Shown here: in pieces, positions 6,301 to 24,782 of the stretch
How positions within the stretch are numbered: position 1 is the first letter of the stretch
How the letters are laid out: each line of letters begins with the position of its first letter
Virus record (IMG/VR): IMGVR_UViG_3300032214_000148
Coordinates: 1-24,782 of that record
Source: a virus
Direction: 5' to 3' (one strand)
Length of the DNA: 24,782 nt
The notes under the pieces: model-generated
Seen by the model: the letters and a program-made list of their open reading frames with translations, nothing else
The model's database searches: none
Told to the model about the DNA's origin: nothing
Program-made: the position numbers and the translations under genes

Positions 6301-7005
6301 ATGACTACAATAATCGCAACTTTGGTGATGGTTCAAATCACTATCGCCTGTGTTACTCTATTCCTACATAGAAGCCAGGCACACAGAGCAGTACAATTTC
6401 ATCCAGTAGTAGAACACTTTATGCGTTTTTGGCTTTGGCTAACCACAGGAATGGTAACCAAACAGTGGGTGGCCATCCACCGCAAGCACCACCAGAAAAG
6501 TGATCAGGAAGGTGATCCACACAGCCCACAGATCTACGGCATTTGGCGTGTGCTATTCAAGGGCTGGATCTTGTATCACGATGCCAGCAAAGATCTTGAT
6601 ATGGTCGAGAAGTTGGGCATTGGCACACCTGATGACTGGATTGAGCGTAAACTCTATACCCCACACAGCCGCATAGGGATTCTTCTTATGTTGGTCATAG
6701 ACCTTGTTCTTTTTGGCCCTATGGGTTTAGTAGTGTGGGGTATTCAAATGATCTGGATCCCATTGTGGGCAGCTGGAGTTATTAACGGACTCAGCCACTG
6801 GTGGGGTTACCGTAACACAGATACCAAAGATACTAGTCGTAACCTATGGCCTTGGGGCATATGGATTGGCGGTGAGGAACTACACAATAATCACCACGCC
6901 GATGGTGCTAATGCCAAATTCAAACAGCGTTGGTTTGAAATTGACATAGGTTGGATCTATATCCAGATACTGTCAACACTAGGATTGGCCAAAGTACGCA
7001 CATAA
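6301..7005 (+). CDS. Membrane fatty acid desaturase
   Basis: 234 residues, an integral membrane di-iron desaturase of the acyl-CoA/acyl-lipid delta-9 type. The three histidine boxes are intact: HRSQAH at 23-28, HRKHH at 60-64 and HNNHH at 195-199. Hydrophobic segments lie around residues 3-22, 40-55 and 120-160. It would introduce a double bond into host fatty acyl chains using O2 and an electron donor, changing membrane fluidity. Phage-borne desaturases occur in marine T4-like phages as auxiliary metabolic genes. Transcribed divergently from the HAD gene. A weak plus-strand promoter (TTGTTT 6241-6246, 17 bases, CATAAT 6264-6269) overlaps the minus-strand one. A strong terminator follows. Confidence 0.88.
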   Translation: MTTIIATLVMVQITIACVTLFLHRSQAHRAVQFHPVVEHFMRFWLWLTTGMVTKQWVAIHRKHHQKSDQEGDPHSPQIYGIWRVLFKGWILYHDASKDLDMVEKLGIGTPDDWIERKLYTPHSRIGILLMLVIDLVLFGPMGLVVWGIQMIWIPLWAAGVINGLSHWWGYRNTDTKDTSRNLWPWGIWIGGEELHNNHHADGANAKFKQRWFEIDIGWIYIQILSTLGLAKVRT

Positions 7006-17703: not shown

Positions 17704-20040
17704 ATGCAAATAACAGTAATTAAAAGAAGCGGACAAAAAGAACCACTCGCCGTAGAGAAGTGGCAGGCGCAGGTAGCTAAGGTTTGCAAGGGGATAGCAG
17801 ATGTTAGCCAGTCGATGATAGAGATCAAAGCTCAACCTCATTTTTATGATGGTATTACTACAAAAGAAATTGACGGTATTACTCTAAGAGCTATTGTAGA
17901 TCTCATCGACGTCGAACACAATCCTGATGTTGGACACGTTAACTATCAATACGTGGCAGGCAAACAAAGACTTAGTATGCTACGCAAAGATGTCTATGGC
18001 GATTACGAACCTCCACATTTATATGAGATAGTAAAGAAAAATGTAGCCACCGGCCTTTACACTAGTGAACTATTAGAATGGTACTCTGAAGATGATTGGA
18101 ATAGGATGAACGATATGATCGATCATTCTAAAGACGAAGAATACGGTTATGCTGCAATCGAACAACTGATTGAAAAATATCTAGTTAAAAATCGTAGCAC
18201 CAAGGAAATTTATGAAACTCCACAGGTTAGATATATGGTCGCGGCCGCTACTGTATTTCACAAAGAAGAACCGAATGCAGCGAGAATGCGCTACATCAAA
18301 GAATATTACAATGCGGCATCGGATGGCCTATTTACTTTGGCTACTCCTGTGCTTGCTGGGCTTGGCACTCCTACTAAGCAGTTCAGTAGTTGCGTTCTTA
18401 TTCGCAGTGACGATGATCTTGATAGCATTTTTGCTAGCGGAGAGATGATGGCCAAGTATGCCAGCAAACGTGCTGGTATTGGTTTAGAGATTGGACGCTT
18501 ACGTCCATTAGGATCGCCCATCCGTGGTGGTGAGATTATGCACACAGGTATGATACCATTCTTGAAGAAGTGGTTTGGTGACCTACGTTCGTGCAGTCAA
18601 GGAGGCATTCGTAATGCTAGTGCTACTGTATTCTATCCTATTTGGCATCATCAGTTTGATGATCTTATTGTACTTAAGAACAACCAAGGAACAGAAGAAA
18701 CCCGAGTCCGTCATATGGATTATGGGGTTGTGCTTAGTGCCTTCTTCTGGAGACGATTTAAAAACAAACAAGACATAACATTCTTTGATCCAAATGAAGT
18801 GCCTGACTTGTATGAAGCTTTCTACAAGAATACAGAACTGTTTGAAGAATTGTATGTAAAATATGAAAAGCGCAAGGACCTTCGTAAGAAGTCTATGAGC
18901 GCCGAGGAAGTGTTCAAGAGTGGTATACTGAAAGAACGCACAGACACGGGTCGAATATATCTCGTATTCATTGATAATGTAATGAACCAAGGTCCTTTTG
19001 ATCCTGAGTACCACACGATTTATCAAAGTAACTTGTGCTGTGAGATCCTATTACCCACCCGTCCATTTAAGCGATTAGACGACGAGAGTGGACGCATAGC
19101 GTTATGTACACTGGGATCTATCAACTGGGGATCGTTCCGAAATCCAGAGGATATGCGTAGAGCCTGTAGGATTCTACAGCGTAGCCTGTGTAACATTCTT
19201 GACTATCAAGATTTCTTGTCAATTCAAAGTAAATTAAGCAACGACGAGATACAACCATTAGGGATTGGTGTAACTAATCTAGCCTATTGGCACGCCAAGC
19301 GTGGTCTGAGATACGGTGACAAAGATGCACTGGCAGAGGTAAAGTCGTGGATGGAACATCAGGCTTTTTATCTAACAGAAGCCACAGTTGAAATGGCGAA
19401 AGAACGCGGAGCCTGCAAAGATTCAGCATATACACGTTACGGCAAAGGACAGTTTCCTTGGGAACATCGAGCCAAAGGTGTTAATGAGCTTGCAGACTTT
19501 ACTCCTGAACTTGATTGGGAACCTCTACGTAGAGATATGAAAGAGTACGGAGTTAGAAACGCCACCCTTATGGCCATTGCTCCTGTAGAATCTAGCAGCG
19601 TGGTTATCAATTCTACTAATGGTATTGAAATGCCTATGTCGCTTATTAGTACTAAAGAATCTAAGGCAGGTTCGTTCACACAGGTAGTTCCAGAATACAA
19701 TAGGTTGAAGAATAAGTATCAACTAATGTGGGAACAGAAAGACTGCGATGGTTATTTGAAAACTTCTGCGGTACTTGCTGCCTATGTTGATCAAAGTATT
19801 TCAACTAATACATTTTATAACCCCGCACACTTTGCAGATCGCAGAGTGCCTACAACGCTAATTGCTAAGAATTTAATGCAGGCACATATGTGGGGATTAA
19901 AGACATTCTACTATAGTTTAATTAATAAAGCAGGTAGCAAAGCTATCGCCGAACCTACCCCAGAAGTACAGTATAACGGACACAACGGATATCATCTAGA
20001 AATAGAACTAGAAGATGACTGCGAGTCCTGTAAGTTATGA
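17704..20040 (+). CDS. nrdA: Ribonucleoside-diphosphate reductase class Ia, alpha subunit
   Basis: 778 residues, full length for NrdA. It reduces ribonucleoside diphosphates to deoxy forms with the radical supplied by NrdB. Conserved residues: C230 in FSSCVLI and C468 in ALCTLGSIN (redox pair), N443, C445 and E447 in NLCCEI (active site), Y736-Y737 in KTFYYSL (radical transfer), and C773-x2-C776 in the tail CESCKL (shuttle to glutaredoxin or thioredoxin). An N-terminal ATP-cone-like segment (ITVIKRSGQKEPLAVEKW) suggests dATP regulation. First gene of the RNR operon; it overlaps the next gene by four bases and shares the operon with nrdB and a glutaredoxin. Confidence 0.97.
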   Translation: MQITVIKRSGQKEPLAVEKWQAQVAKVCKGIADVSQSMIEIKAQPHFYDGITTKEIDGITLRAIVDLIDVEHNPDVGHVNYQYVAGKQRLSMLRKDVYGDYEPPHLYEIVKKNVATGLYTSELLEWYSEDDWNRMNDMIDHSKDEEYGYAAIEQLIEKYLVKNRSTKEIYETPQVRYMVAAATVFHKEEPNAARMRYIKEYYNAASDGLFTLATPVLAGLGTPTKQFSSCVLIRSDDDLDSIFASGEMMAKYASKRAGIGLEIGRLRPLGSPIRGGEIMHTGMIPFLKKWFGDLRSCSQGGIRNASATVFYPIWHHQFDDLIVLKNNQGTEETRVRHMDYGVVLSAFFWRRFKNKQDITFFDPNEVPDLYEAFYKNTELFEELYVKYEKRKDLRKKSMSAEEVFKSGILKERTDTGRIYLVFIDNVMNQGPFDPEYHTIYQSNLCCEILLPTRPFKRLDDESGRIALCTLGSINWGSFRNPEDMRRACRILQRSLCNILDYQDFLSIQSKLSNDEIQPLGIGVTNLAYWHAKRGLRYGDKDALAEVKSWMEHQAFYLTEATVEMAKERGACKDSAYTRYGKGQFPWEHRAKGVNELADFTPELDWEPLRRDMKEYGVRNATLMAIAPVESSSVVINSTNGIEMPMSLISTKESKAGSFTQVVPEYNRLKNKYQLMWEQKDCDGYLKTSAVLAAYVDQSISTNTFYNPAHFADRRVPTTLIAKNLMQAHMWGLKTFYYSLINKAGSKAIAEPTPEVQYNGHNGYHLEIELEDDCESCKL

Positions 20041-20486
20041 AAACATTAAGAGAATACATTGATTTAATTACAGAGTCAACAGAAGTTAATGATGACTGGT
20101 TCAAAGCCGGAGCATTTAAAACTTTTAAAAGGCCAGCTGAAGAAAAATATGAAATTGCTACAGAACCAGGAACCGTTGACACATTAGAAGGTCCTGTTAG
20201 ATACGAAGCAGGGCATTATATTATGACTGGACCAAAAGGTGAGAAGTATCCCATAAGTCCAGAGAAGTTTAAAAATCTCAAAGACGATCAAGGAGATGGA
20301 GTTGCTACTCCAAAAAAAATCTTTAAAGTAGCTAAACTTGCAGACCACGACGGTGTGCTACACACTAGTTGGGGTGATCTCAAATATACCAAAGGTAACG
20401 ATTACATTGTACGTCACGGCGAAGGCGACTACGGTGCTGTAAAAAAAGATATTTTTAAACAAACATACGAGACATCAAATGAGTAA
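20037..20486 (+). CDS. PGDYG-like protein with capsid-targeting-like N-terminus
   Basis: 149 residues. The N-terminus MKTLREYIDLITE-S matches T4 internal-protein leaders (MKTYQEFIAE-A) in length, charge and the I-T-E cleavage site. The rest has two related repeats: residues about 45-85 (GHYIMTGPKGEKYPISPEKF) and 98-145 (GNDYIVRHGEGDYGAVKKDI). The second holds a GDYG motif like that of the PGDYG family of unknown function. It lies between nrdA and nrdB with overlaps of 4 and 8 bases, which is unusual. Either a packaged head protein has been placed in the RNR operon, or the leader-like N-terminus has another purpose here. Confidence 0.65.
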   Translation: MKTLREYIDLITESTEVNDDWFKAGAFKTFKRPAEEKYEIATEPGTVDTLEGPVRYEAGHYIMTGPKGEKYPISPEKFKNLKDDQGDGVATPKKIFKVAKLADHDGVLHTSWGDLKYTKGNDYIVRHGEGDYGAVKKDIFKQTYETSNE

Positions 20487-24244: not shown

Positions 24245-24448
24245 ATGGTAACAGGAAAAGTAAAGTGGTTTAACGATGCCAAAGGATTTGGTTTCATTAC
24301 TCCCGACGATGGTGGCGCAGATTTATTTGCACACTTTTCACAGATTAATTCGAGTGGCTTCAAAAGTCTACAAGAAGGACAGAGTGTAAGGTTTGAAGTA
24401 ACTCAAGGTATGAAAGGCGCACAGGCTAGTAACATCCAGCCTGCCTAA
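24245..24448 (+). CDS. Cold-shock domain protein (CspA family)
   Basis: 67 residues, full length. RNA-binding motifs RNP1 (KGFGFI) and RNP2 (DLFAHF) are intact, with the start [14 protein letters not shown] and an acidic DDGGADLF loop. It is probably an RNA chaperone or translation antiterminator acting on phage or host mRNA. The ribosome site is distant (AGGAAAAAG ahead of a TAACATA spacer), and the sequence AACAGGAAAA occurs both before and just after the start codon. It ends 14 bases before the tmRNA acceptor region with no terminator between, so the two may be co-transcribed. Confidence 0.93.
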
Positions 24449-24462
24449 AAGAATTGTTGTAA

Positions 24463-24517
24463 TCCCTTCAAAGCGAAGGACTTTTGGACGCGGGTTCGAC
24501 TCCCGCCTGGTCCACCA
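24463..24517 (+). ncRNA. ssrA: Permuted tmRNA, acceptor piece (3' part with CCA)
   Basis: The 3' portion of tmRNA, encoded upstream of the 5' portion. It has TTTTGGACGCGGGTTCGACT..CCGC, closely matching bacterial tmRNA 3' ends. The T stem GCGGG (24490-24494) / CCCGC (24502-24506) closes a TTCGACT loop. The acceptor strand CTGGTCC (24507-24513) and A-CCA (24514-24517) follow. A hairpin CCTTC/GAAGG (24465-24479) lies just upstream. No D or anticodon arm precedes it, so it is not a tRNA. The acceptor strand pairs perfectly with the start of the coding piece at 24609. The exact mature 5' end is not determined. Confidence 0.93.
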
Positions 24518-24608
24518 AAAGAGGAGTAGAGTATGGACGATGATCTGGTTAGATTTTTAATCGGGATAGTAACAGTGATCGTTGTTGGAGCAATAATCCT
24601 TTTTTGAT
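24518..24608 (+). other. tmRNA intervening segment (removed on processing)
   Basis: 91 bases between the CCA of the acceptor piece and the GGGCCAG start of the coding piece. In permuted tmRNA genes this segment is excised to leave two RNA pieces. Here it contains a Shine-Dalgarno (GAGGAG 24521-24526) and a complete small ORF. Confidence 0.85.
24533..24607 (+). CDS. 24-aa single-pass membrane peptide inside the tmRNA spacer
   Basis: 24 residues: an acidic N-terminus (M-D-D-D), then a hydrophobic stretch from Leu5 to Phe24 with one Arg at position 7 and Gly at 11 and 19, ending directly in TGA at 24605-24607. GAGGAG lies six bases before the ATG, an optimal distance. The ORF fills the tmRNA spacer and ends one base before the mature coding piece. 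It would be translated only from unprocessed precursor. One-helix peptides of this kind in phages include holin-like, antiholin-like and superinfection-exclusion peptides; none is identified. Confidence 0.6.
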   Translation: MDDDLVRFLIGIVTVIVVGAIILF

Positions 24609-24782
24609 GGGCCAGTCATGGTTTCGACAGAGGTAGATAGTAGAGACGGCAACACGGTAGGCGATGACCGTAAATCAAGCAAAACCTATAAACGCCAACG
24701 ACGACGTTTACGCAATGGCCGCTTGAGCCTTGCCGGGGTAGTCATACCTTGTAATCCAAAATGACAATAGGCTCTTCGGGGC
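24609..24782 (+). ncRNA. ssrA: Permuted tmRNA, coding piece with tag ANDDVYAMAA (3' end outside window)
   Basis: The 5' portion of tmRNA. GGGCCAG (24609-24615) forms the acceptor stem with 24507-24513 (seven pairs, one G-U). Then comes the conserved ATGGTTTCGACA D-loop region. A hairpin ACGGT (24654-24658) / ACCGT (24667-24671) fits the first pseudoknot. The tag frame starts at GCC 24694 and encodes ANDDVYAMAA with stop TGA 24724-24726, close to the E. coli tag ANDENYALAA and ending in the AA needed by ClpXP. After the stop, GAGCCT (24725-24730) pairs with AGGCTC (24769-24774), and GTCAT (24741-24745) with ATGAC (24761-24765). It acts in rescue of stalled ribosomes with SmpB, which is not in this window. 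Confidence 0.93.

Follow-up and report, generated by a model that had tools for sequence, protein, structure and literature searches.

Two questions in a viral tmRNA locus

The 3' end of the 24,782-nt viral stretch that we analysed (the window) raises two questions: whether it holds a phage-encoded tmRNA gene in two pieces, and what occupies the space between those pieces. A phage-encoded permuted tmRNA had been proposed there from the sequence alone, and covariance searches bore this out. The Rfam model beta_tmRNA (RF01850) matched positions 24413-24782 with 157.1 bits (E = 6.8e-49; gathering score 84), the match being truncated solely by the 3' edge of the window, and tmRNA_permuted (RF04321) matched positions 24455-24726 with 147.3 bits (E = 1.6e-29; gathering score 47). 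ARAGORN reported one tmRNA in the window, with the tag ANDDVYAMAA*, and was concordant with Rfam in placing a circularly permuted tmRNA gene at the window end. The gene and its upstream neighbour have these parts:

24245-24448, + strand: cold-shock protein gene (CspA/CspE-like; PF00313, E = 3.8e-30), directly upstream, its stop codon 6 nt before the start of the tmRNA model
24455-24517, + strand: tmRNA acceptor piece (3' tRNA-like part), from the RF04321 and RF01850 alignments, with the P2 strand, the T-arm, the acceptor 3' strand (24507-24513) and A-CCA (24514-24517)
24609-24782, + strand: tmRNA coding piece (5' tRNA-like part), from RF01850, with the acceptor 5' strand (24609-24615), the D-loop motif and the tag region; it continues past the window
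24694-24726, + strand: tag reading frame ANDDVYAMAA*, from ARAGORN and the sequence

The order of the pieces is that of a circularly permuted tmRNA: acceptor strand, T-arm and CCA precede D-loop and tag, and a 7-bp acceptor stem joins them. As the sequence-only reading had noted, a T-arm with CCA (24490-24517) lies upstream of a tmRNA 5' region (24609 on), and a D-loop motif (TGGTTTCGACA) and a tag ORF ending in AA are both present; the tag frame has a hydrophobic, Ala-rich end. The acceptor stem (24507-24513 with 24609-24615, GGGCCAG/CTGGTCC) is likewise real, but it is not perfect, as had been stated, because it consists of six Watson-Crick pairs and one G.U pair at position 3. A G3.U70 pair is what tmRNAs usually have as their AlaRS signature. 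In L248, the closest homologue, the 350 nt downstream contain a tag ORF and a terminator-like hairpin with a T-run; no second T-arm/CCA was found in these 350 nt, which argues against an ordinary tmRNA 3' end downstream of the window.

The T4-like identity of the source phage is plausible. Gp23 (PF07068) was matched in 8 of 18 related records, with sizes up to 364 kb, the window itself being a 24.8-kb fragment. We rejected a T4 late promoter (TATAAATA) at the locus: there were three matches, none of them near it, and their number was not above chance. Elsewhere, the window carries a phage-borne 5-aminolevulinate synthase gene (3-809, - strand; TIGR01821 above cut-off, truncated at the window start, no PHROG family matched) and a gene for a DesA-family fatty acid desaturase (6301-7005, + strand; NF049918 above cut-off), also on this phage contig.

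Phage-encoded two-piece tmRNAs are already described in methylophage Melnitz and other aquatic phages, in a report that surveyed 18,146 phage genomes and counted 53 two-piece structures (Buchholz 2022, PMC9004378); phage permuted tmRNAs also appear in PMC11915505. The window tmRNA is a further example of these. Permuted tmRNAs are likewise present in seven cultured phages (L707-L713) whose records lack a tmRNA annotation: Xanthomonas XacN1, Pseudomonas SM1 and PA_L9, Alcaligenes QDWS595, Bordetella PHB04, Stenotrophomonas QDWS359 and Acinetobacter BUCT628.

A small ORF is nested in the intervening segment

What sets the locus apart is not the phage permuted tmRNA itself but the protein gene that its intervening segment contains. 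The sequence-only reading had made no mention of a small ORF between the two tmRNA pieces, where the following features lie:

24518-24608, + strand: intervening segment (IVS), 91 nt between the CCA and the 5' acceptor strand, absent from the mature tmRNA
24518-24525, + strand: 5' strand of the IVS terminal stem, AAAGAGGA, which pairs with 24597-24604 and holds most of the Shine-Dalgarno sequence
24521-24526, + strand: Shine-Dalgarno (SD) sequence GAGGAG, read from the sequence, 6 nt ahead of the ATG
24533-24607, + strand: nested ORF MDDDLVRFLIGIVTVIVVGAIILF, 24 aa, with its ATG at 24533 and its TGA at 24605-24607, 1 nt before the acceptor 5' strand
24597-24604, + strand: 3' strand of the IVS terminal stem, TCCTTTTT, which overlaps the final codons of the nested ORF

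The window IVS starts AAAGAGGAG. The nested peptide has one predicted membrane helix (hydropathy 3.1 over 17 residues); that this 24-aa cargo helps lysis, or alters host membrane proteins, is a guess in either case. The locus might instead be an ordinary phage permuted tmRNA whose IVS is a plain processing hairpin and whose ORF is accidental, and the length of the window frame is in keeping with this, since an open frame as long arises in 20% of shuffles. The window ORF is short and its length alone is not significant, so the case for it depends on L248 and on the wider family. At the corresponding place in its IVS, L248 codes for MDDDLARFAMGILAVIVVGALILF, and the two ORFs differ by eight synonymous and seven nonsynonymous changes (pN/pS 0.30).

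Spanning ORFs among viral permuted tmRNAs

Viral contigs were searched for permuted tmRNAs in two ways, with DNA patterns and through the Csp protein encoded upstream, and ARAGORN together with a regular expression set the gene boundaries. An SD-led ORF spans the IVS in 108 of 208 distinct viral permuted tmRNAs, with 51 unrelated families by BLASTP, a fraction that is enriched because part of the sample was gathered by searches designed to find such ORFs; about half of the collection has no spanning IVS ORF. In less biased samples, spanning SD-led ORFs occurred at 11 of 49 and 1 of 27 loci, and at 17 of 33 next to csp (the Csp protein query fetched 80 viral loci, which gave 33 distinct permuted tmRNAs).

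We compared the frequency of spanning ATG ORFs with shuffles in four classes of IVS length, in which the sequences are distinct but not all independent. Complete scans found such an ORF in 14 of 15 IVSs of 140-170 nt (shuffle mean 0.27, maximum 2) and in 19 of 42 IVSs of 102-132 nt (shuffle mean 1.6, maximum 6). Among the matches listed, 13 of 43 IVSs of 70-98 nt had a spanning ORF (shuffle mean 5.1, maximum 11), as did 4 of 21 IVSs of 47-67 nt, which is the chance rate (shuffle 3.9). The excess in the longest class argues against accidental ORFs, as does the fixed place of the SD. By contrast, ORF-less hairpin IVSs in many phage and all sampled bacterial permuted tmRNAs would fit an accidental origin. 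So would the stop: 60 ORFs end exactly 1 nt before the acceptor strand, but many ORF-less IVSs likewise have TGAT immediately ahead of the acceptor, so that a stop there is not special. Of the remaining ORFs, most either stop 7-13 nt short of that strand or continue into the tmRNA; for those that enter the tmRNA 5' region, the end positions are tentative. In L714, L747 and L797, IVS ORFs lack an SD and have AAATAAA or TAAATAT ahead of them; the hosts of these phages may use another start signal.

Every ORF-bearing IVS comes from a metagenome contig. The cultured phages with a permuted tmRNA that we examined all have ORF-less IVSs, and when 50,697 phage records were searched with two tmRNA queries and with the window flank, the matches were partial, most of them covering the 3' tRNA-like piece, and no ORF-bearing IVS was among them. 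A scan of genome contigs yielded no permuted tmRNA among the matches listed, which says little. As bacterial controls we used 37 permuted tmRNAs (viral locus L631 excluded); none of the 6 betaproteobacterial and none of the 31 alphaproteobacterial genes has an IVS ORF, ruling out the IVS ORF as a general trait of permuted tmRNAs. Bacterial IVSs are mostly short (25-43 nt in the six betaproteobacterial genes; median 37 nt in the 31 alphaproteobacterial genes).

Coding constraint and products of the IVS ORFs

In comparisons of IVS ORFs, mismatches at the first, second and third codon positions numbered 695, 309 and 1029. pN/pS was 0.32 in the 24-aa MND group and 0.19 for L319/L254 and L275/L276; the family MKIDITAEHE (L256/L273/L326) showed no synonymous bias, with a ratio of 0.94 on few changes. 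A single membrane helix is suggested by the look of 41 of 99 distinct IVS ORF products. The IVS of L260 encodes an 84-aa thioredoxin with WCGPC (PF00085, 4.1e-21; NCBIfam TIGR01068, 3.4e-21 but below its cut-off), and that of L604, a different phage, encodes a thioredoxin too. One product is a PGDYG-domain protein (PF14083, 3.4e-6), which has this domain in common with a window ORF at 20037-20486; others are a short Cys/His-rich protein and the products of 105- and 124-aa ORFs without a confident family. Synonymous-biased change in homologues and a thioredoxin gene in the same slot are at odds with accidental ORFs, an explanation that, for the group, is largely refuted by these two observations and the complete scans with shuffles. 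We regard it as highly improbable that the locus is an ordinary permuted tmRNA with an accidental ORF.

Two further arrangements were seen. A tRNA-Asn gene occupies the IVS of the phage permuted tmRNA of L110, and in L248 and L260 peptides of the same look are also encoded adjacent to the tmRNA, in the stretch from csp to the T-arm.

The IVS as an exchangeable slot

Twenty-four genes with identical sequence over the 38 nt before and the 24 nt after the IVS (62-nt flanks) enclose either ORF-less hairpins or ORFs, of which at least nine are unrelated to one another. The nrdA-nrdB neighbourhood of the window recurs in relatives that are roughly 70-86% identical in DNA, depending on the piece, and whose IVS content differs: L408, L106, L801 and L604 have IVS ORFs other than that of the window, and L165, L025 and L736 have none. 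L260 and L604 are 96.6% identical over the tmRNA and its thioredoxin-bearing IVS, and 76-79% identical elsewhere. Judged by these comparisons, the IVS is an exchangeable cassette slot within the tmRNA gene.

Identical flanks around many different inserts also resemble a recombination target, and the tmRNA may have decayed or been repurposed, leaving a locus that is mainly a protein cassette, with the tmRNA sequence kept as a stem-loop or a site of recombination. Consistent with such decay, no SmpB family match was found in 18 related phage records. The RNA itself argues otherwise. Across the ORF inserts of 83 distinct genes the acceptor stem is 100% paired and covaries, with several Watson-Crick types at pairs 4-6; the T-arm is kept, and G3.U70 is present as G-T in 81 of the 83 ORF-bearing rows, as it is in the window stem. 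Tag frames of viral permuted tmRNAs are varied, and nearly all end in AA. We give decay or repurposing of the tmRNA very little credence. Some loci (L260, L275, L294 and others) have unusually long tags, such as ANADTFDFSAMSFTGNTVRGAANESRFALAA, with a repeated FTGNTV core.

A terminal stem holds the Shine-Dalgarno sequence

The window fold has a z-score of -4.0, with the SD paired. In 83 ORF-bearing IVSs, 89% of cells are paired between the first and last 12 nt, versus 70% with swapped partners (maximum 73%), and AAGGA lies at pairs 2-6 of the IVS stem. This stem is weaker in ORF-bearing than in ORF-less IVSs (-7.8 versus -11.9 kcal/mol).

An SD buried in a processing stem, with a stop codon that adjoins the cleavage site, is what one would expect if the nested frame were regulatory, with ribosomes on the IVS delaying or triggering tmRNA processing whatever peptide they make; the use of the slot by many unrelated peptides fits this as well. 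The amino acid sequence is nevertheless kept within families, and one cargo is a recognisable thioredoxin. We consider a regulatory frame an unlikely explanation of the locus, although a regulatory role could hold in addition to the main explanation.

A model for the locus

We consider it probable that the locus is a functional-looking phage-encoded two-piece tmRNA gene whose IVS has turned into a slot that takes small protein genes. The sequences themselves show the anatomy of the tmRNA, the nested ORFs with the constraint on their coding sequence, the exchangeability of the slot, and the stem. We infer co-transcription, processing, translation, competition between translation and folding, and rescue activity; for processing, translation, gating and rescue, the basis is what is known of permuted tmRNAs.

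The tmRNA probably shares a transcript with the upstream cold-shock gene, in which the acceptor stem and the 10-12-bp IVS stem would be coaxially stacked. Cleavage at the CCA/IVS and IVS/acceptor junctions, by RNase P and 3' processing, would yield the two tmRNA pieces; the IVS piece would be a complete mini-mRNA, its ribosome-binding site a few nucleotides inside one terminus and its stop codon 1 nt short of the other. Because the start site would be paired within the IVS stem, which is G.U-weakened in ORF-bearing members, translation is expected upon opening of the stem; translation of the precursor would compete with tmRNA folding and processing. That the upstream cold-shock protein opens the SD-sequestering stem is only a hypothesis. 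The tmRNA would act in ribosome rescue with SmpB, presumably the host protein, and the cargo would be the 24-aa membrane peptide in the window and other peptides or proteins, such as thioredoxin, in relatives.

More tentatively, as a possibility that we think somewhat doubtful, these may be three-product loci, in which tmRNA maturation frees a ready-made spacer mini-mRNA with an exchangeable coding cassette and the stem that guides processing also gates translation of the cargo. The released message would end 1 nt after its stop codon, so that even light trimming would turn it into a non-stop mRNA, a substrate of the tmRNA from the same transcript.

Comparison with known systems

At loci of this kind a conserved functional RNA gene appears to house exchangeable protein genes, with dozens of unrelated families at one excised place. 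Being mostly short and lying within an RNA gene, the IVS ORFs may escape annotation; the slot points to a set of small phage proteins, many of them membrane peptides, and offers a direct way to ask how phages couple maturation of a rescue RNA to protein expression. In open-access full text, our search turned up no previous description of permuted tmRNAs with protein genes in the IVS.

The Melnitz tmRNA, as the accessible passages of PMC9004378 present it, is also a phage-encoded permuted tmRNA in a large myophage; it differs in being of the alphaproteobacterial type and riboswitch-linked, and no IVS gene is reported in those passages. As for what an IVS can contain, a tRNA-Ala and a repetitive element are the only cases named in the accessible part of the tmRNA database paper (PMC11915505). 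The former case shares with ours a gene nested in the IVS, but there it is a tRNA, in one nominally archaeal case, whereas here it is a protein gene. Homing endonucleases encoded by group I introns of tmRNA genes (PMC11915505) are likewise proteins whose genes sit in a removed stretch of a tmRNA gene. In our case that stretch is a permuted gene's IVS instead of a self-splicing intron, and the encoded proteins are varied and small. We rejected a group I intron with a homing endonuclease at the window locus, where the insert lies between the CCA and the 5' acceptor strand, not in the T-loop region as in such introns, and where no match to an intron family attained the gathering threshold anywhere in the window. 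With the beta-type permuted tmRNA (RF01850; RF04321) the locus shares gene order, T-arm, G3.U70 acceptor stem, D-loop motif and tag frame, as well as IVS ends that follow the pattern TAAG..CTTATGAT seen in some betaproteobacterial genes; the difference is that the window IVS is 91 nt long and coding, whereas that of the six sampled bacterial genes is a 25-43-nt hairpin.
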